From IMG/VR virus record IMGVR_UViG_3300037421_000066, positions 1 through 53,109 of that record: a stretch of DNA of 53,109 bases; one strand, given 5' to 3'. The translations under genes were made by a program, and so were the position numbers. The DNA is from a virus. A model generated the notes under the pieces. That model saw only the letters and a list, made by a program, of their open reading frames with translations, made no database searches and was not told where the DNA came from. Below, piece after piece: positions 4,336 to 53,109 of the stretch. The first letter of the stretch is position 1; the number at the start of each line of letters is the position of its first letter.

Positions 4336-4471
4336 TGATTAGCGCGCCCCGAAGTTAGCGCCAACCAGCGATGCCGAGTGGAAGGCGCGGCTAGAACGCT
4401 TCCGTAGCGATCAACGCTATCGGATAGAGTCGCTGTACTTTATCCGAACGCAGGCTCGTAAGACTATCCGC

Positions 4472-6355
4472 TTGCGCTTCAACGAGGCGCAAGTCAAGTT
4501 GTATGAGTGCCATCAGTGGTTCCGCGAACGTCGGATGCCAGTGAGAATCATTATCTGCAAAGCGCGCCGAGCGGGTCTTTCAACCGGCGTCGAGTCGCTC
4601 ATGTTCGACGACACGACGATGCACGCGCATACCGACTCGCTCATCGTTTCGCACCAACTTAATCCGTCCGAGAACGTGCTTGGTATGTGCAAAGTCTTTT
4701 GGGACCATATGCCACAGAAGCTGCGCTTCAAACTCTCGACGGGCGACGAGATCGTTAACGTGCGCCCGCCGATGCACCCCAAGTATTCCGGCGAATTGCC
4801 AAGCGATAAAATCGAGTTTGCGCCGCCGCTTTCGTCGCGCATTTTCATCGCTACGTCGAAGTCGGTTGACGCCTATCGTTCGTTCGCGTTCCAGAATCTT
4901 CACGCCACCGAAGTTGCGTATTACGCCGACGCGGGCAACCTGTTCACCGCCCTCATTGCTACCGTGCCGCTTGAGCCCGAAACGGCGATTTACATGGAGT
5001 CAACGCCCAACGGCATGGGAGGAGTGGGCGAGTGGTTCTTCGAGCATTGCTATGATGCAGAGCTAAACGGCGCCGAGCCCGACTACGGCGAGTCGCGCCT
5101 CGTCTTTATCCCGTGGCATGAGCTTGTCAAGTCGTTCACGCGCCCGTTCGACTCAATGGAGAACCGCGCGCGGTTCGAGCGAAGCCTAGACGAGCACGAG
5201 AAAGACTTACTCAAGCAGTTTCCGCATATCACGCTGGAGCAACTAAACTGGCGTCGAGCGCGTATCTCGCAGCCCGACTTTGCCAAGGATGAGGAGAAGT
5301 TCTACCAGGAATACCCCGAGTCGCTAACCACCGCGTTTCTTGCCAGCGGCTCGATGGTGTTCTCGCGCCAAGCGATGCAGAGGCTGTCGCTCAACACGAA
5401 GCCGCCGTTATGGGAGGGCGACATCTACTGGGGCGAGTCCGACGCGCAAAACGTCTACGACTCGACGTACAACACCGTTCGTCGCCCGAAGTTCCTCTCA
5501 CCCGGTAAGGCCGAGTCGCAAGGCTTCAGTTCGCACACCATTAACAAGACGATGGATAACCTCAAGGTGTGGCGCTGGCCCAACAAGGGCGAAACGATCG
5601 TCATTGGCGCGGACATCGCTCGCGGAAATCCCCGAAGCAAAGACGCCGACTACTCGGCTATCTGCGTGCTGGTCCTCAACGAACTCGAGCGCGACGAGTT
5701 GATTATGACCTGGCGCGGGCGCATCAACACCATCTCCTTCGGGGACGTGCTGGCGGCGCTCGCGTGGGCTATCCGCTACAACGTCGGGGACAAGATACGC
5801 GCACCGATCCTCGCGCCGGAGTGGACCGGGCCAGGCACGGCGACGTGCACCTATATTGACGAGCGGCGGCTTTACCCGCTGTGGCACTACCGAATGCCGG
5901 GCGTGCAGGGCTTCCCGGCGAGTAAGCACGTCGGCTGGGAAAGCAACGGCAAAACCAAGCCGTTCGCCGTTTCCGCAATGGTGCAGTCGGTAGAAAATAA
6001 GCAGGTTGAAATCTTCTCGAAAGAGCTCGTTCAGGAGATGGCCGCCTATCGTCAGCAGGGGGCGATGGCCGACGAGGCGAGTTACGGCGGCGTCGGGGCG
6101 CACGACGACCTTGTTTCCGCCTTTCAGATTGCCAACGCTATCTGTCGTTTCGAGGCGCGGATTAACCCGCACGAGAGCGATGAAACCTCCGTGGTGAACC
6201 TCGACGCTCCGCCGATTGGCGACTCGGGCGGGATGCGCGTCGAGCCGTTTGACGAGTTCGAGGCGATGGCTGGCCTGCCGCAAGGTGAACGGCTCATCGA
6301 GGACGCGGCCGATGCGTTCAACGAGCTAGACTTCAGCGAGCGCGGCTATTACTAG
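4472..6355 (+). CDS. terL: Terminase large subunit
   Basis: A 627-residue packaging motor, ATPase plus nuclease, read from the TTG at 4472. A Walker A-like KARRAGLST lies at residues 30-38 after RIIIC; the Walker B-like region is NLHATEVAYY. The RNaseH-like nuclease acidic residues appear in IGADIARG (about 380), LAPEWTGPG (about 447) and GAHDDLVSA (about 542). The same frame stays open from 4343 and encodes plausible terminase N-terminal sequence (DAEWKARLERF, FIRTQARKTIRLRFNEAQ) but has no usual start codon there. The TAATG-overlapping ATG at 4335 is one frame off. The true N-terminus may need one more base or a recoding event. Confidence 0.92.
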   Translation: MRFNEAQVKLYECHQWFRERRMPVRIIICKARRAGLSTGVESLMFDDTTMHAHTDSLIVSHQLNPSENVLGMCKVFWDHMPQKLRFKLSTGDEIVNVRPPMHPKYSGELPSDKIEFAPPLSSRIFIATSKSVDAYRSFAFQNLHATEVAYYADAGNLFTALIATVPLEPETAIYMESTPNGMGGVGEWFFEHCYDAELNGAEPDYGESRLVFIPWHELVKSFTRPFDSMENRARFERSLDEHEKDLLKQFPHITLEQLNWRRARISQPDFAKDEEKFYQEYPESLTTAFLASGSMVFSRQAMQRLSLNTKPPLWEGDIYWGESDAQNVYDSTYNTVRRPKFLSPGKAESQGFSSHTINKTMDNLKVWRWPNKGETIVIGADIARGNPRSKDADYSAICVLVLNELERDELIMTWRGRINTISFGDVLAALAWAIRYNVGDKIRAPILAPEWTGPGTATCTYIDERRLYPLWHYRMPGVQGFPASKHVGWESNGKTKPFAVSAMVQSVENKQVEIFSKELVQEMAAYRQQGAMADEASYGGVGAHDDLVSAFQIANAICRFEARINPHESDETSVVNLDAPPIGDSGGMRVEPFDEFEAMAGLPQGERLIEDAADAFNELDFSERGYY

Positions 6356-38523: not shown

Positions 38524-38642
38524 CGCTCCCCTCCGCCGCCGAACAGCCGTGCGGGCCACGCAGCGTTCGGGAACGCGGCGCAGGCGAGAATCATCGCCAA
38601 GCCTACGAGGTCGGCCAGCGCGGTGACGAGGCGGTTAGTCAT
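38520..38642 (-). CDS. Single-pass membrane microprotein
   Basis: A 40-residue protein from the ATG that overlaps the end of the phosphoesterase gene. One hydrophobic helix (LADLVGLAMILACAAFPNAA) with a Gly/Arg end. It is co-translated with a secreted lipoprotein gene, perhaps acting with it at the membrane; this is a guess. Confidence 0.45.
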   Translation of the reverse strand: MTNRLVTALADLVGLAMILACAAFPNAAWPARLFGGGGER

Positions 38643-39975
38643 CGTCGGGCGCTCCGCTGCCCATCGGTTGCCGCAAGAAGTAGCGCGCGTCGTGCGCGGC
38701 CCGAATCCGCTTGAACGGCCGCGCCTTAGACCCGCTAAAACAGTCAGCGAGGTCGTCTGCTGCCGCGTCGCTCGTTCCCATTGAAGGCAGGCCAAACTCC
38801 TCCTCGATAAACTTCAGGATCGAACCAAACTCGTGAGGGACGTGGGAAACGTAACCGCTTTTAGCATACGGTGAGATAACAAGCAACGGCACACGGAAGC
38901 CGAGTTCATAGGAATTGCGGACTGTCGGCGTAACTGGATCGAAGAACCCACCCCAGTCATCGGGAAATTCGAAGATCGCCGTCGAGTTCCAATACTGCGA
39001 CCCGCCGATGGCGTTAACGATGCTGGCCACCCAAGCCGGTCCGGAGCCGTCGGTCTTGAGCGCGTGGTCCGACGCGGCGGCGGTCGGCGTCACGAACGAC
39101 ACGCTCGCGAGGTTCCCGGCGGCAATATCGGTGAGCACCTGTGACGGCGGATAGACGACGTTCGTCGCGTACTCGGGCTTCTGCCAAATCTGCTTGATGG
39201 CATCGACCGCGTTCCAAGCCGAGCTGCCGCTGTGCCATTGGTAGTAGCGCCAGCTTATGCCCGCCGTGTCGAGCTCGTCGAAGATCGACGTGCGGTCGAA
39301 GCACGGGAACGGGCCGTCGTGCTGCTTGCCAGCCGAGTCGATGACCTTCACCCGCGCGTCGGCCAGCGAGTCGCAGCCGCCCTGGCTGCCGATGTGCTGT
39401 GGGTCAGACGGGTTGTCGTCGGCCAGCAGGCTCGAGCCGTTGGCGATCGACGACGTGCCGCTGATGAGGTACTGATGCGCCGGGAAGCTCGGGCCTTCGT
39501 TGCTCTGGAACATCTCATCGCCCAGGACGTACTGCGTCGCCATGTCCCAATACGGCTGCACCTCAGACTGCGGGACGTAGGCGAACGCGGCGGTACCTTT
39601 GGGCGGGCAGTTGCGGGCGCAGTTCACGCCGTCGAGGTCCCACCCGTTCATCGCTCCGCCGGCGTACTCGCGCTTGAAGCTCTCGTGCAGGTGCCCGAGG
39701 TCGTAGTGCGCCGTGAGCGACTGCGGGACAAGCGTGACCGTCTGGCCGTAGGAGTTCTGCCCGCTCGTGGCCGTCGTCGCGCCGGGGAAGTTCATAAACA
39801 GGTTGTTGAGACTGCGGTTCTCCTGCACGATGATCACGACGTGGGTGATTGGCGGGAGCGGGCCGTGCGGGCGAGTCGTCGGATGCGGAACGCCAGGCAG
39901 CGAGGCAGAGGATCCGCCTCCGCTCGAGCAGGCGGCGAGAGCCAGGAGCGCCGCGATAGGCAGCGAGCGAGTCAT
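38635..39975 (-). CDS. Secreted lipoprotein phosphoesterase (phospholipase C/acid phosphatase family)
   Basis: A 446-residue protein with a lipoprotein signal (LLALAAC, Cys16). The mature part carries the motifs of PF04185: HVVIIVQENRSLNNLFMNFP at 45-64, PYWDMATQYVLGDEMF and NEGPSFPAHQYLISG with the likely nucleophilic Ser. WDWGG-type FPDDWGGFFDPV and GFRVPLLVISPYAKSGYVSH complete it. Known members hydrolyse phosphate esters of lipids or other substrates outside the cytoplasm. The usual D-H of WGGfyDHv is FDPV here. It follows an RHH gene under its own promoter, as morons do. Confidence 0.85.
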   Translation of the reverse strand: MTRSLPIAALLALAACSSGGGSSASLPGVPHPTTRPHGPLPPITHVVIIVQENRSLNNLFMNFPGATTATSGQNSYGQTVTLVPQSLTAHYDLGHLHESFKREYAGGAMNGWDLDGVNCARNCPPKGTAAFAYVPQSEVQPYWDMATQYVLGDEMFQSNEGPSFPAHQYLISGTSSIANGSSLLADDNPSDPQHIGSQGGCDSLADARVKVIDSAGKQHDGPFPCFDRTSIFDELDTAGISWRYYQWHSGSSAWNAVDAIKQIWQKPEYATNVVYPPSQVLTDIAAGNLASVSFVTPTAAASDHALKTDGSGPAWVASIVNAIGGSQYWNSTAIFEFPDDWGGFFDPVTPTVRNSYELGFRVPLLVISPYAKSGYVSHVPHEFGSILKFIEEEFGLPSMGTSDAAADDLADCFSGSKARPFKRIRAAHDARYFLRQPMGSGAPDDD

Positions 39976-40159: not shown

Positions 40160-40579
40160 TCAGAGCCCGACTTCGGTGGCGTGGCTGAGGAGTTCGTCGG
40201 AATCATCGCCGCCTTTGCGGCGCCGCGCGCTCTCCCGCTCGCGCACAGCTTTCGCTCGCCGGTGCTCCTGCTCGCGCATCGAGGCGGCCAGGGCGTCGCG
40301 GTCTCGCTCGATCGCGGCGTCAAAGGCCCGCTCGGCGTCCTCGTAGCGCAAGCCGCGCTCCTCGGCCTCTTGGAGCCAGCGCCAGCGGCGAAGCAGCGCG
40401 TACCCGAGCGGAGTCGCAAAATCCCCGGTGCTTTGCCCCCTAGAATCGGCCAGGATGGCCGCAACGCCCGCCTGGCGGCAATCTTCCAGGAAGCGGCGCC
40501 AATCGGCGTAGGAGCGCCCTGGAGGCTTGATTCTGGCAAGTTCGACCATCGGCCCAAAAAGGTCGTGGAGTCTGTTCAT
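40160..40579 (-). CDS. Hypothetical protein
   Basis: A 139-residue protein with a folded, aromatic N-terminal half (PPGRSYADWRRFLEDCRQAG) and a long, charged, Arg-rich helix (AFDAAIERDRDALAASMREQ). It overlaps the methyltransferase stop. The helical tail may bind nucleic acid. Function unknown. Confidence 0.5.
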   Translation of the reverse strand: MNRLHDLFGPMVELARIKPPGRSYADWRRFLEDCRQAGVAAILADSRGQSTGDFATPLGYALLRRWRWLQEAEERGLRYEDAERAFDAAIERDRDALAASMREQEHRRAKAVRERESARRRKGGDDSDELLSHATEVGL

Positions 40580-41703
40580 GCTTCTGCTCCGAATAGGCTG
40601 CGTTGCTGGAGCCTCGCCTCAATGAGCGGGCGGTAGCCTTCGTTCAGCTCATAGCCGACCCACGCGCGACCGAGCGACTCCGCGACTTCGAGGGTCGTTC
40701 CGCTGCCAGCGAACGGATCGAGAACGAGGTCGCCTGGCTTGGAGCCTGCGCGGATGCAAAGCGACGGAATCTCGGGCGGGAATGTGGCGAAGTGGGCGTC
40801 GGGATACGGCTCGACGCCAATCGTCCACACGTCACGCTTGTTCCGCTGGTAACCTTCCCACGGAATTGAACCCGCTACGCCATCTTTTGGGCAGCCTCGT
40901 TCGGTCGCCGCTTTCCGCTTTTTATTTCCAGATCGCGACGGAACGTGAGAGACGTTTTGGTATGAGTTTTTTCCGGCCGCTAGGTGCGCTGGTGTTCCAA
41001 TCTTTTCGCAGGGCTCGGCAATCGCGGTGGCATCCCAGAAGTAGTCTTTCGACTTAGAAAACATGAAAATGTATTCGTGGGATTTAGTGCAGCGGTCGGA
41101 CACACTTTCCGGCATAGGGTTTGGCTTCGCCCAAATAATATCCTGACGAAGGCGCCAGCCTTGGTCACGGAGCGCGAAGGCGACCGACCACGGTATACCA
41201 ACTAAGTCTTTCTCTTTTAGATTCGTTCCAGCTAACCTATTCGGGCGTTTCGTTTCCGAGTCCGGCGAACCGTTACCCATAATCGAGCGACGAGCGCAAG
41301 CCCAAGCAGAAGCGTAGGAATCTCCAAGGTTGAGCCAAAGCGTTCCGTCCTCTCGGAGAACGCGGCGCACTTCATCGAATACCGAGACTAGCCGGTCAAC
41401 GTATGCCTCTGGCGTGGGCTCTAAGCCTATCTGCTCGTCAACGCGAACCGCGCCGCATCGCGGGCATGATTCCGGGAAGCCTTCGCGCTGGTGCCCGGTC
41501 GTCGCTTTGCCGCCACCAAGGGTTGAGGATTCTATCTTAGGGTCGAGGCGAACAGCGTGTCCGCACTCCGGGTCGCCGCCATCCCAAGAGCCTGTTCCGT
41601 AATCGCGAAGCCCCCAATATGGCGGCGAGGTCACGCAGGTCTGCACGGTGCCATCCGCGATCTCGGGCATCGTTTCGCACGACCGATAGAAAACGCGGTT
41701 CAT
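40576..41703 (-). CDS. DNA methyltransferase (N4-cytosine or N6-adenine)
   Basis: A 375-residue protein with the beta-class order of amino-methyltransferases. The catalytic motif is TSPPYWGLRDY at 25-35, and the SAM-binding DPFAGSGTTLEVAESLGRAW lies near residue 335. SPPY (rather than DPPY) is more often found in N4-cytosine enzymes. No cognate endonuclease is nearby, so it is probably a solitary methylase that protects phage DNA or changes its regulation. C-terminal YRPLIEARLQQ completes the fold. Confidence 0.88.
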   Translation of the reverse strand: MNRVFYRSCETMPEIADGTVQTCVTSPPYWGLRDYGTGSWDGGDPECGHAVRLDPKIESSTLGGGKATTGHQREGFPESCPRCGAVRVDEQIGLEPTPEAYVDRLVSVFDEVRRVLREDGTLWLNLGDSYASAWACARRSIMGNGSPDSETKRPNRLAGTNLKEKDLVGIPWSVAFALRDQGWRLRQDIIWAKPNPMPESVSDRCTKSHEYIFMFSKSKDYFWDATAIAEPCEKIGTPAHLAAGKNSYQNVSHVPSRSGNKKRKAATERGCPKDGVAGSIPWEGYQRNKRDVWTIGVEPYPDAHFATFPPEIPSLCIRAGSKPGDLVLDPFAGSGTTLEVAESLGRAWVGYELNEGYRPLIEARLQQRSLFGAEA

Positions 41704-43217: not shown

Positions 43218-44284
43218 TGCTTGGTTTCCTCGTTAGCTTTGACGCGGGCGACAAATGCTTGCAGCGCTCGACTAAACTGCTGAAGCTGAACCAAGTCTAA
43301 TTTCGTGCTAGAGACTTCTTCATCCGGCTTGTCGCGAAACAATTCTTCGAACGTATCTCTTAAAACAAACTTGTAGAGCCCGTCCTTCTCGCTCGTGTCG
43401 ATGCCACGATTCGCGCACCACACATGAATGTTCTTGATGCCCTCTTTGCGGCGGCGCGTTGCTTCGGCCGGGCTCTCGACAGGCGGCGCTTTCGGAGCGG
43501 CCTTTGCGGCCGGGGGCGTCACGTTGCGCGGCTCGCCCTGCGCGGCCATCGTTGCGGGCATATCCTCAACGCCTTGCGTGAAAATGTCGCTGCATCCGGT
43601 CGCCACTAACGTCGCGGCAATCAGCGCCCGCTTGTCGGCCATTTTCTTGATCGTGTTTTGAAGTTCGGAAACGTCCTCGTTCGCAACCTTGCCGGCATTC
43701 TGTGATTCGATCGCCGCGTCGCCGTCGCGAAACTTCGCGCCGCAGCCGTCTTTTTTCTTGAAGCAAACCCAGCCGCCGCCGTAGTCGGCCTTGCCTTTGA
43801 TGATGGCTTCCTTGCCGCATTGCGGACAGACGCGGGACGAGTTGCGGTAGCGGTACTTTGGCTCCCAGGAGTTGCACGCACCGCCAAGGTTAGCCACTTC
43901 GATCCGGTCGTTCACAGTCGGCCCGGTCTGCCGGTAGATGCGGCAATAGCGGTCGTACATGATAAACGGCTCGCCGCCGTGGTCCTTGCCGGTGAAGTCT
44001 AAAATCGGCGGCGATTCGTTCCCGGTTTCCGAACGTAGCCCCATGCCAGAGAGCAGCGCCTCCGCGCCCGGCTTGTAAAGCGTCGGCTTCTGCGTGCCAG
44101 GGATGACGCCGTAATGAACGCCCTCTTTGAGCCGTTCGCGGTAGAATCGGTCGCGCTCGCGCAGCATGGCAAGCTGGTCGTCAACGCTGGTCGCGAAGCG
44201 CGGCGTCCACTCGGCGGGAGCGAAAGTCTCGCGTACCGCAAGCGGCTGCTCTGTCACCTCGCCTTCGATTATCTCTTGGCTCAT
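43214..44284 (-). CDS. Phage recombination-associated protein, putative single-strand annealing type
   Basis: A 356-residue protein with a well-marked phage pattern. HYGVIPGTQKPTLYKPGAEA comes near residue 60, NSWEPKYRYRNSSRVCPQCG and GGGWVCFKKKDGCGAKF (a zinc ribbon) follow, then IKKMADKRALIAATL and SDIFTQGVED. The tail is Ala/Pro-rich plus a C-terminal helical domain. Such proteins often lie beside a Cas4/RecB-like nuclease, as here, which suggests a Red-beta-like partner. The family is recognised; the exact activity is inferred from the pairing. Confidence 0.6.
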   Translation of the reverse strand: MSQEIIEGEVTEQPLAVRETFAPAEWTPRFATSVDDQLAMLRERDRFYRERLKEGVHYGVIPGTQKPTLYKPGAEALLSGMGLRSETGNESPPILDFTGKDHGGEPFIMYDRYCRIYRQTGPTVNDRIEVANLGGACNSWEPKYRYRNSSRVCPQCGKEAIIKGKADYGGGWVCFKKKDGCGAKFRDGDAAIESQNAGKVANEDVSELQNTIKKMADKRALIAATLVATGCSDIFTQGVEDMPATMAAQGEPRNVTPPAAKAAPKAPPVESPAEATRRRKEGIKNIHVWCANRGIDTSEKDGLYKFVLRDTFEELFRDKPDEEVSSTKLDLVQLQQFSRALQAFVARVKANEETKQ

Positions 44285-44763
44285 GCTGTGCTCCTCATAT
44301 CAATTCCGGGCATATTCTTGCGCCTCCACTCCGCCGCTACCAGCGCCGCTTCCGAAAGAGTTTTATACCTTCCGAGGTTCAGCCGCTTCCCGTTGCATCG
44401 AATCTGCACCATGTAATGAGCACGGCGGCGCGACGTTTCCGGGTAGAACCAGACGTTCTTCACGCCAGTTTTTGACCACGGCCGAGCCTCGGTATTGTGG
44501 CAGTTCACGAAATGAGCAACGATCCGAAGATTCGCTCGGCGGTTGTCTAGCCGATTGCCGTTAATGTGGTCAACTTGCTCGCGTCCCTGAGCGTTTGTCA
44601 GTATCCGATGAAGCCTAACGGGCAGCCATTTGCCGCCTATCTTGAAGTTTGAGGTCGCGTAGCCACCAGAATCAATGTGCCAATTCTTAGAGGCCAAAAA
44701 AGATCGGTCGCATTCGTCAAATATCAGCCACTCAGGAATAAGCTTTCGCGGCCCTTTAGGCAT
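44281..44763 (-). CDS. HNH homing endonuclease
   Basis: A 160-residue protein with LHRILTNAQGREQVDHINGN then LDNRRANLRIVAHFVNCHNT, the HNH core. An AP2-like C-terminal half (KTGVKNVWFYPETSRRRAHY; GRYKTLSEAALVAAEWRRK) binds DNA. It sits between the nuclease and annealing-protein genes and overlaps both by a few bases, so it inserted without breaking them. Related to the copy at 45687. Confidence 0.85.
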   Translation of the reverse strand: MPKGPRKLIPEWLIFDECDRSFLASKNWHIDSGGYATSNFKIGGKWLPVRLHRILTNAQGREQVDHINGNRLDNRRANLRIVAHFVNCHNTEARPWSKTGVKNVWFYPETSRRRAHYMVQIRCNGKRLNLGRYKTLSEAALVAAEWRRKNMPGIDMRSTA

Positions 44764-45514: not shown

Positions 45515-45690
45515 TTGACGGCTCGGCTTCCCGCTACCGTTACGTCGATAATCTTCATGTTGCTGTCCGAGCCGTATGCGCTCGCGAGATTGTCGGGCAT
45601 CCAATCGGCTAACTCTCGTGCGCGCGTTTCGGCACGATTGTCGTTCTCGTCGTCAAACGCGAAAGTAATAACCACGCAGTATCGCGTCAT
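45508..45690 (-). CDS. Hypothetical protein
   Basis: A 60-residue protein with a strand-helix-strand outline (RYCVVITFAFDDENDNRAET; NMKIIDVTVAGSRAVKC). It overlaps the HNH gene upstream and the exonuclease downstream. Function unknown. Confidence 0.5.
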   Translation of the reverse strand: MTRYCVVITFAFDDENDNRAETRARELADWMPDNLASAYGSDSNMKIIDVTVAGSRAVKC

Positions 45691-46334
45691 GCCGTCGGCG
45701 GCTCGTGGCCCCAGCGCCGCAGCTCAGCCAGCGCAGCGGCGAGGTAATCCGGGCGCGATCTAAGATCGTAGCCTGGTATATGCTTTTGCTTCCATCGCTC
45801 TACTGCGTCTTTAGCTTCCAGTATCGTCGCGAAAGACCCAAGGCAGTAACACACCCCGTCTACTCTCACCTGGGCGTAATAAGGCAATCTTCCTAAACGG
45901 TTAGCAGGGTAAACATTTTTAACGCCGGTTTTGGAGGATTTTGAAACCGGGGTATTGTGGCAGTTCACAGAATGCCTTACAACCCGGAGGTTTTCTCGCC
46001 TATTGTCTAGCTTGTTGCCATTTATATGGTCCACCTCGAAGCCTGGCGGGACATCCTCAATTATCTCTCGATGCAAGCGTATTTTTCGCCTTGACATAAC
46101 GTAGCCGGAGCCGTCGAGCCACCAGCGACGTCCTTCAAGGATGCTGCGATCTTTTTCGTCTACTAAGACTCCTTTAGGAACATACGCAGGTCCTCTGGGA
46201 GCGCGCGATTGGTGACGACGGACAAATGTATTCCAATGCCCTTCGTAGACTGTCCATTCTGTAGCGTTGCCACATCCACACGCGCAGAGAGGGGGGCTTT
46301 GATCCAGGGGTTTAGCGTACCGATATTTTCCCAT
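45687..46334 (-). CDS. HNH homing endonuclease
   Basis: A 215-residue protein. A short N-terminal part has CACGCG and a basic stretch. The HNH core is LHREIIEDVPPGFEVDHING, NKLDNRRENLRVVRHSVNCH, and an AP2-like half follows (KTGVKNVYPANRLGRLPYYA). Its C-terminal tail of about 30 residues is absent from the relative at 44281. Both lie next to the exonuclease. Confidence 0.85.
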   Translation of the reverse strand: MGKYRYAKPLDQSPPLCACGCGNATEWTVYEGHWNTFVRRHQSRAPRGPAYVPKGVLVDEKDRSILEGRRWWLDGSGYVMSRRKIRLHREIIEDVPPGFEVDHINGNKLDNRRENLRVVRHSVNCHNTPVSKSSKTGVKNVYPANRLGRLPYYAQVRVDGVCYCLGSFATILEAKDAVERWKQKHIPGYDLRSRPDYLAAALAELRRWGHEPPTA

Positions 46335-47247: not shown

Positions 47248-47499
47248 TCAGGCTGAGGCCCGGGGACCTAAACCTCGGGCCTCAGGCATGCCCTGGGCCG
47301 GAATCCGAGCGCCGTCCTCGCTCTGCTCGCCATTACGCTGCGAGCGACGATTCCCCAATACTGCGTCGGTCTTAGCCTCAAGCGCCGTGAAGGCGAATGT
47401 CGAGAGGGTCAGGCCGAGCGCCTTGGCCGCCCGGATGATGCGCCGCTTCTGCTTGTCCGTCACGCGCACCGCGATGGTTGCCGAGCGGATTGGAGTCAT
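47248..47499 (-). CDS. Ribbon-helix-helix regulator
   Basis: An 83-residue protein. SATIAVRVTDKQKRRIIRAA then LGLTLSTFAFTALEAKTD fits Arc/CopG-type RHH proteins, followed by a polar tail. The ATG lies six bases after a strong -10, with two 10-bp direct repeats in the promoter that may be its operator. First gene of the long leftward unit C; a likely autoregulator. Confidence 0.65.
   Translation of the reverse strand: MTPIRSATIAVRVTDKQKRRIIRAAKALGLTLSTFAFTALEAKTDAVLGNRRSQRNGEQSEDGARIPAQGMPEARGLGPRASA
47253..47285 (-). terminator. GC-rich hairpin at the end of the RHH gene
   Basis: CTGAGGCCCG (47253-47262) and CGGGCCTCAG (47276-47285) form a perfect 10-bp stem within the 3' end of the RHH gene. 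No U tract. It may lower read-through into the rest of unit C or protect the RHH mRNA. Confidence 0.45.
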
Positions 47500-51701: not shown

Positions 51702-52096
51702 GAGGCCACCTGCTTGTAGTAGCCAGGAAGCGCGGCCGCGAAGCGTTGCATCTGGTAAACGCACGATCCGTAGGCTGGAGGAGGAACGACGGAGAGAGGC
51801 CCGCGCGTGATTGCGTCCTCGAATGAGAGCTCGCGCAGAATCCAGCCTGCGGGCGCTCCTGTCCGCCAATCGCGCCGCGAGATAGTGTCTAGGATTCCGA
51901 AAAGCACCTGCTCCTTCGCCATCTCTCGCTCGCGCGCCGCGTTAATGCGCGCTTCGATTCCGCGATGCTTGTAGCTGAGGGTGACGTAGTAAGGCGCGCC
52001 GTACTTGGATTCGGCGTCGCGAATGAGGGTATCCGTGCGCTCCTTAGCCTTTAGCCAGGCTTCGCGCGCCGCGTAAAACTTGGTCCGGTAATCCAT
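51698..52096 (-). CDS. Hypothetical protein
   Basis: A 132-residue protein after AAGGGACC. A charged helical N-terminal two thirds (AREAWLKAKERTDTLIRDAE; IEARINAAREREMAKEQVLF) and an aromatic tail. Function unknown. Confidence 0.5.
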   Translation of the reverse strand: MDYRTKFYAAREAWLKAKERTDTLIRDAESKYGAPYYVTLSYKHRGIEARINAAREREMAKEQVLFGILDTISRRDWRTGAPAGWILRELSFEDAITRGPLSVVPPPAYGSCVYQMQRFAAALPGYYKQVAS

Positions 52097-52152
52097 TGTT
52101 GAGGTCCCTTCTGCCGGTTGAGGCCGGCGGCAGTATGGCGAGGGCCGGCGCG

Positions 52153-52284
52153 CTAGTGATCCTTATTGTGCTCGCGGAGCTCGCGATCGTACTCGTCGCG
52201 CGCGGACACTTGCTTGGAACGGCGCGCCTTTTGCGCCTTGATAGCCGCGAGAATCTGCTCGCGAACGGTCTGGTGCTTATCCAT
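52153..52284 (-). CDS. Basic helical microprotein
   Basis: A 43-residue protein (MDKHQTVREQILAAIKAQKA then RRSKQVSARDEYDRELREHN). It starts six bases after a -10 box and so may be translated without a leader. First leftward gene from the divergent promoter region. Its charge and position suggest a regulator or RNA-binding peptide, which is speculative. Confidence 0.5.
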   Translation of the reverse strand: MDKHQTVREQILAAIKAQKARRSKQVSARDEYDRELREHNKDH

Positions 52285-52290
52285 GTACCC

Positions 52291-52319
52291 ATGTTACCAT
52301 AATGGATACCATAACGCAA
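52291..52319 (-). promoter_or_regulatory. Sigma70-type promoter of leftward unit A
   Basis: On the minus strand TTGCGT (52319-52314), 17-base spacer, TAACAT (52296-52291), then six bases and ATG at 52284. TACCATAA occurs twice on the + strand at 52295-52302 and 52307-52314 with a 12-base period, as an operator would. Confidence 0.7.
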
Positions 52320-52337
52320 GAGGGCGCGGAAAGATAC

Positions 52338-52367
52338 TTGCGCGTACTTGACATGAGGGCGTAGAAT
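52338..52367 (+). promoter_or_regulatory. Rightward promoter of the C4-like RNA
   Basis: TTGCGC (52338-52343), 18-base spacer, TAGAAT (52362-52367). Transcription would start near 52374, at the base of the first hairpin. It is back to back with the leftward unit A promoter, the two -35 boxes being 18 bases apart. Confidence 0.6.
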
Positions 52368-52371
52368 GCAA

Positions 52372-52474
52372 GAAGCCCGCGGCCTCAACTCCGCGAGCTT
52401 CCAAAAGGTCGTGCTGGCGACCCGCGCCAAGTCTACCACGGAAACCGCCAGCACGCAAGAAAGGCGGTTTTGTT
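52372..52474 (+). ncRNA. Structured leader, C4-like antisense RNA candidate
   Basis: Hairpin 1: GAAGCCCGCGG (52372-52382) with CCGCGAGCTTC (52391-52401), one mismatch. Stem 2: GTGCTGGCG (52411-52419) with CGCCAGCAC (52446-52454), enclosing AAGTCTACC (52429-52437); an alternative small inner hairpin GGCG-CGCC reuses its last four bases. AAACCGCC (52442-52449) is also complementary to GGCGGTTT (52463-52470), which lies over the ribosome-binding site of the next gene and forms a terminator-like hairpin with a T-rich end. Two hairpins plus a site complementary to a downstream start region is the design of C4 RNA of phages P1 and P7. I recall the family but cannot score it. Confidence 0.55.
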
Positions 52475-52693
52475 ATGGTTCGAGGGAAAGGCGCGACCGG
52501 GTGCGCGATGCAACTCGTTCGCATTCCTCGCCACAAGCCGCGCAAGAAGGTTCTGCAGCGCCGCGCCGCCGTTAAGGCCGCGATCGCGCGCTATTGCCCA
52601 GGGTGCAGCACGCCTTTGATCCGAACGCGCCGGCCGAACGAAGAAGCCTGGCGGATGACCTGCTCGAGCTTCTGCGGATTCGAGGCCGCCTAA
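52475..52693 (+). CDS. Small zinc-ribbon protein under the C4-like RNA
   Basis: A 72-residue basic protein: the first half is Lys/Arg-rich (RIPRHKPRKKVLQRRAAVKA), the second a likely zinc ribbon (YCPGCSTPLIRTRRPNEEAW, TCSSFCGF). GAAAGG ten bases before the ATG is the likely ribosome-binding site and can be covered by pairing with the upstream RNA. In P1 the target is an antirepressor; no such family is recognised here. Confidence 0.55.
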   Translation: MVRGKGATGCAMQLVRIPRHKPRKKVLQRRAAVKAAIARYCPGCSTPLIRTRRPNEEAWRMTCSSFCGFEAA

Positions 52694-52982
52694 CGCACGC
52701 CGCCAAGACGCCTTCACCGCGTCGAACCTCTGGAGCTCGCCGGCGCCCGCCTGAGCTCGAGGCCGATGGGAAGGAGAACCTACGGAGAGGATGGGCGAAC
52801 TGCGCCCGCTAGGGCGCGCTACCTTCAGGACGACCGGAGGGAGGACAACCCGGAGGGTTTCTGGCCTGAGGCCAGGGCGGAGCCGCCACGAGCCAACAGC
52901 AGGAGCGGCCTTAGAAGGCCGCGACCGACACGCGAAGCGCCATAGCTCGTCGTAATGCTCCGCAATTGACTCTCCCTCCGCC
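52694..52982. other. Region with clustered inverted repeats
   Basis: No firm gene. Two short overlapping open frames on the + strand (59 residues from 52766, 55 residues from 52789) are possible; the second has GGAG-like sequence before it. Three compact inverted repeats follow each other: CTGGCC-TGA-GGCCAG (52861-52875), GGCGG-AG-CCGCC (52876-52887) and GCGGCCTT-AG-AAGGCCGC (52905-52922). They may mark a terminator, packaging site or origin. Confidence 0.45.
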
Positions 52983-53109
52983 CGCCTCTCTGCCGGCACG
53001 AGCATCCGCCCGCGCGCCGAGGCCGAACGGCGCTGGCAGGTCGATACCCCCGAGCAGTGTGTTTGCGAGCGAAAGACTCATGCTGGGCTTCGCCCTTTGC
53101 AAAAAAAAA
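52983..53109. repeat. Terminal direct repeat, right copy
   Basis: Exact copy of 1-127; see the left copy. Remove one copy to obtain the circular genome of 52,982 bp. Confidence 0.95.

Follow-up and report, generated by a model that had tools for sequence, protein, structure and literature searches.

A candidate attenuator leader, distinct from C4 RNA, ahead of a zinc-ribbon-like reading frame in an uncultivated phage

The C4 RNA is excised by RNase P from a longer transcript, in phage P1 from the leader of the very transcript that it represses, and it binds two target sites through the loops a' and b' (PMC5320573). In phage HK022, the put RNA of about 73 nt forms two long stem-loops that meet at a bifurcation, and it binds RNA polymerase (PMC9378689). 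Bacterial 5' attenuators of the terminator/antiterminator type have leaders of ~100 nt with mutually exclusive stems, the later of which resembles a terminator and stands before the start codon. The leader described here, which stands ahead of a 72-residue open reading frame (ORF) in a viral record of 53,109 nucleotides (the window), had originally been predicted to be a C4-like antisense RNA.

The main outcome of the present analysis is a corrected label, because the leader does not belong to the C4 family and should not be filed as C4. The general idea of the original prediction, a post-transcriptional switch in which the ORF beginning at 52475 has its ribosome site hidden by RNA structure in the leader, survives; the C4 antisense form of that switch is not supported. 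The most unusual feature of the leader is its set of perfect stems that share bases, part of which had been missed. In this respect, as well as in length, in the position of a terminator-like stem before the start codon and in predicted folding order, the leader resembles the bacterial attenuators; however, it differs from them in having no known signal, no Rfam leader match on this strand and no relatives, in a U-tract and loop that are not ideal, and in a terminator stem that also holds part of a ribosome site.

Mutually exclusive stems in the leader

The two successive hairpins of the original prediction, P1 and P2, were both recovered (Table 1), as were the segment AAGTCTACC at 52429-52437 and the complementarity between AAACCGCC (52442-52449) and GGCGGTTT (52463-52470), which lies directly before the ATG at 52475. 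AAACCGCC and GGCGGTTT are 13 nt apart on the same strand and form a hairpin, T, which is followed by the U-tract UUUUGUUA running into the start codon; this arrangement in cis had been overlooked. The stem of T consists of 8 perfect pairs, its loop is long, and T is not reported by a standard terminator scan. In the class of perfect stems with 7 or more pairs and loops no longer than 20 nt, T has the most U-rich tail on either strand of the genome, with 7 T in the nine bases past the last G or C, and only four hairpins of this class in the whole genome have at least 5 T in those nine bases. Since T holds part of the presumed Shine-Dalgarno sequence GAAAGG, it could also act on translation.

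Table 1. Features of the leader locus, by position in the window
Feature	Coordinates	Strand	Description
Putative weak promoter	52338-52367	+	TTGCGC (52338-52343), 18 nt, TAGAAT (52362-52367); read from sequence
17-mer GTAGAATGCAAGAAGCC	52361-52377	+	Common to this virus and related contig L007
Overlapping 69-codon frame, possible leader ORF	52366-52575	+	Begins at ATG 52366; GAGGG six bases upstream; coding score ambiguous
Hairpin P1	52372-52401	+	Two 5-pair stems with a 1x1 internal loop (10 pairs); -16.0 kcal/mol
Hairpin P2	52407-52422	+	GGUCGU/GCGACC, 6 pairs; -9.3 kcal/mol; coexists with T, excluded by P3
Stem P3, antiterminator-like	52410-52455	+	CGUGCUGGCG (52410-52419) with CGCCAGCACG (52446-52455); perfect 10 pairs; -17.9 kcal/mol
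Hairpin T, terminator-like	52441-52471	+	AAACCGCC/GGCGGUUU plus a G-U pair; 13-nt loop; U-tract UUUUGUUA; -12.7 kcal/mol
Presumed Shine-Dalgarno sequence of the 52475 ORF	52459-52464	+	GAAAGG, with GG inside T; read from sequence
72-residue ORF, presumed target	52475-52693	+	C-x2-C...C-x3-C, zinc-ribbon-like; sub-threshold Pfam match

A second repeat, also missed previously, is formed by CGTGCTGGCG (52410-52419), the exact complement of CGCCAGCACG (52446-52455). The resulting stem, P3, takes up most of P2 and four bases of T (52446-52449), and by sharing bases with both it excludes both. Perfect 10-nt inverted repeats with spacers of up to 30 nt are rare, numbering only three in the genome with P3 among them. 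When the 112-nt leader was shuffled, a 10-nt inverted repeat arose in 0.4% of shuffles, and 0.1% had at least two repeats of 8 nt or longer, in a test that was made only after the P3 repeat had been noticed. In predicted folds of the growing transcript, P1 and P2 appear first, followed by P3 (1.00 at 52454-52466) and then by T (0.97 at 52474), and P2 comes back beside T as further sequence is added; P3 is in these folds an alternative stem that shares terminator bases and forms earlier. The T state is predicted to be ~3 kcal/mol better than the state in which P3 is forced.

We propose, tentatively and with a rough probability of 0.45, that the leader is a cis-acting attenuator which controls the 72-residue zinc-ribbon-like ORF through termination and/or masking of its ribosome site. 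The RNA would begin near 52374, and P1 and then P2 would fold. Once 52446-52455 emerged, P3 would displace P2 and keep CGCC, four bases of the terminator stem, occupied; the emergence of 52463-52474 would then allow T to form at the expense of P3, and T, comprising the U-tract and some bases of the ribosome site, would terminate transcription; in transcripts that read through, it would block translation instead. The gene would be on when P3 was kept or T was broken, whether by polymerase speed, by a ribosome on the 52366 frame, or by a phage or host factor. The attenuator reading is supported by the perfect 10-nt and 8-nt repeats with their shared bases, by the U-tract of T, by the predicted folding order and by the folding energy of the leader relative to shuffles. 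It is weakened by the lack of a diverged relative, the weak promoter, the 13-nt loop, the absence of T from the standard scan, a fold rank that is only moderate, the folding of both strands, the ambiguous coding scores of the ORF and the post hoc character of the P3 test. The leader is ordinary in kind, unproven and an orphan. Should it prove real, a divergent junction in an uncultivated phage lineage would carry a compact element of RNA control, with one hairpin serving as both terminator and ribosome-site mask.

Presumed start, relatives and reading frames

The first alternative to be weighed, which we regard as unlikely, is that the structure arose by chance in G+C-rich DNA and that there is no RNA element at all. 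The overall folding energy of the leader is only moderately unusual (z = -2.84 versus shuffles); 5% of genome windows fold as well after G+C correction, and the opposite strand folds nearly as well as the leader strand (z = -2.15). A weak promoter, an orphan sequence and a second predicted pairing that occurs at chance level (see below) also fit this explanation. The enrichment of inverted repeats, matched in 0.1-0.4% of shuffles, and a U-tract that is rightly placed argue against it.

The promoter named in the original prediction is present and agrees with the consensus at 8 of 12 positions, but it is weak, and a consensus scan reports none. A perfect TTGACA lies at 52348-52353, but its spacing to TAGAAT is only 8 nt. 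At the presumed start of the RNA, GTAGAATGCAAGAAGCC occurs as exact copies that are confined, within the viral collection, to two contigs, namely this virus and L007 (2414-2430), a related virus with a TerL that is 48% identical. The identity is real, but the L007 copy precedes a gene on the minus strand, in the place expected for a promoter of that strand (TTGCAT-17-TATAAT), and the RNA downstream of it is unstructured, so it was rejected as a relative of the leader. Given this setting in L007, GTAGAATGCAAGAAGCC may be a DNA signal or a chance match (BLAST E ~0.01).

Searches with the 72-residue protein in viral contigs, genome contigs and named phages returned only an identical contig of the same virus. 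Searches with TerL and portal sequences led to related contigs (L005-L032), mostly at 42-58% identity, and neither the leader nor the 72-residue ORF was found in them; one related contig at 97% ends before the leader region. An exact 23-mer of the leader and the 10-nt inverted repeat, used as patterns in the viral contigs, matched the same virus or unrelated repeats lacking T. Altogether, these searches found the identical contig as the sole copy of the leader or of the gene, and no diverged one. On the leader strand, none of the Rfam leader families matched. Weak minus-strand Rfam matches (best E 0.05, far under the gathering scores) were judged to be chance matches to terminator-like hairpins.

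The coding evidence for the 72-residue ORF is weak. Its match to Pfam Zn_ribbon_Nudix scores 21.4 bits, under the cut-off of 25.6; its codon score is reached by 9% of decoys, while 11% of real gene segments score lower; and its structure model has low confidence (pLDDT 62). This weak coding support speaks for a second alternative, in which the locus yields a plain small RNA of ~100 nt that would act in trans, or a transcript that simply ends at T, with no switching; P3 would then be incidental and the 52475 ORF either untranslated or otherwise expressed. Also in favor of such a product, T resembles a terminator and has the best U-tract in its class, and P1 would stabilise the 5' end. Nevertheless, a repeat that shares bases in the manner of P3 is rare, and T stops right at a start codon whose ribosome site is usable. 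This alternative appears unlikely; together with chance structure, it is the main rival of the attenuator reading.

The frame that begins at 52366, for which GAGGG is a good ribosome site, crosses the whole leader, and its translation, if it occurs, would melt T. A phage switch unrelated by descent to described leaders might be built on this, with translation of the 52366 frame or a phage factor picking between P3 and T, and with one hairpin both terminating transcription and masking the site at which a new zinc-ribbon protein begins; we consider a switch of this particular kind quite improbable. Two longer minus-strand ORFs that overlap the region (52433-53005 and 52044-52454) were rejected on account of their negative codon scores.

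Comparison with C4 and put RNAs

As with C4 of P1/P7, the phage RNA would be short and would lie ahead of a small ORF whose ribosome site is complementary to one of its segments. The C4 covariance model RF01695 (Rfam 15; gathering score, 45 bits) gave no match at the gathering score in the whole window and none in stretches of 141-261 bases even with E relaxed to 10, and a dedicated genome-wide C4 search returned no match either; the original prediction had proposed a search with this model and had listed the lack of a hit among the results that would speak against it. The identical procedure recovered C4 from phage P1 at 68.8 bits, together with the a1/b1 target family at 51 bits. The upstream a1/b1 target element (RF03163), present in P1, had no Rfam match in the window. 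Furthermore, the C4 consensus in the P1 search has a long outer stem around two hairpins, whereas no C4-type outer stem joins the 5' and 3' ends of the leader, and its predicted fold is a series of successive hairpins, with no stem around any two of them. An ANT antirepressor domain was not found in the genome.

C4 pairs through both a' and b', with one of its two target sites at the ribosome site. Here the pairing at the ribosome site is present, a perfect 8-nt match to this region being found in 2-6% of shuffled leaders. The second pairing of the original prediction, between GGTCGTGC and GCGCGACC (52491-52498), does exist and includes one G-U pair, but GGTCGTGC lies at 52407-52414, one base away from the position first given, and 32% of shuffled leaders contain such a pairing. 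A leader-target duplex of equal stability is formed by 24% of shuffled leaders. With the second pairing at chance and the duplex no better than in shuffles, the two-site antisense picture is reduced to one modest match.

A separate proposal is an RNA that does not belong to the C4 family by descent but, in the manner of C4, acts in trans, with the 52475 ORF as target at its ribosome site. It draws on the 8-nt match between AAACCGCC and GGCGGTTT, on the antiparallel and nested order of the two proposed pairings, and on the fact that C4 of P1 is likewise cut from the leader of the transcript that it represses. We nonetheless hold it to be very unlikely, given the failure of RF01695 to match despite a working control and the chance-level values for the second pairing and the duplex; in addition, the complementary segments are 13 nt apart in one transcript, which makes pairing in cis the simpler reading.

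An antitermination RNA of the put type, in which P1 and P2 would bind polymerase and enable it to read through terminators downstream, appears highly improbable: two successive hairpins do open a presumed phage transcript just past its presumed promoter, as in HK022 putL (PMC9378689), but P2 spans only 16 nt and P1 only 30 nt, with CAAAA or so between them, versus the ~73 nt of put, a comparison of hairpin sizes and spacing made with the published description (PMC9378689) and not by sequence, and there are few terminators in this genome.

Genome ends and gene context

The final 127 bases of the record (52983-53109) are identical to its first 127 (1-127), and the identical contig of the same virus spans the joint between the record ends. 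This terminal repeat points to a genome of 52,982 bases that is probably either circular or circularly permuted, so the leader element would not lie at a true end. The leader region is flanked by leftward genes on one side and by the rightward 72-residue ORF on the other; the nearest leftward gene (52153-52284, minus strand) is clearly coding by its codon score. The original description of the virus as a phage without integrase was borne out for the tyrosine and serine families, as no integrase of either was found.

Across the joint, the next likely rightward gene, ~660 bases past the 52475 ORF, is a 50-residue ORF on the plus strand (374-526); its ribosome site, AGGAGGG, is strong, and its start resembles that of a lipoprotein. 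A leftward cluster on the minus strand encodes a DNA N6/N4 methyltransferase (PF01555) and two HNH endonucleases (PF13392), at 40576-41703, 44281-44763 and 45687-46334. Also on the minus strand, a 446-residue ORF (38635-39975) matches Phosphoesterase PF04185 (E 7e-51) and represents unusual phage cargo. Two further structured sites were observed elsewhere in the genome: a strongly folded plus-strand RNA around the point where the large terminase gene begins (4381-4543; ~3.2 SD under the G+C trend), and a long near-perfect hairpin, CTGAGGCCCGGGGACCTAAACCTCGGGCCTCAG, at 47253-47285, which contains one of the three perfect 10-nt inverted repeats in the genome.
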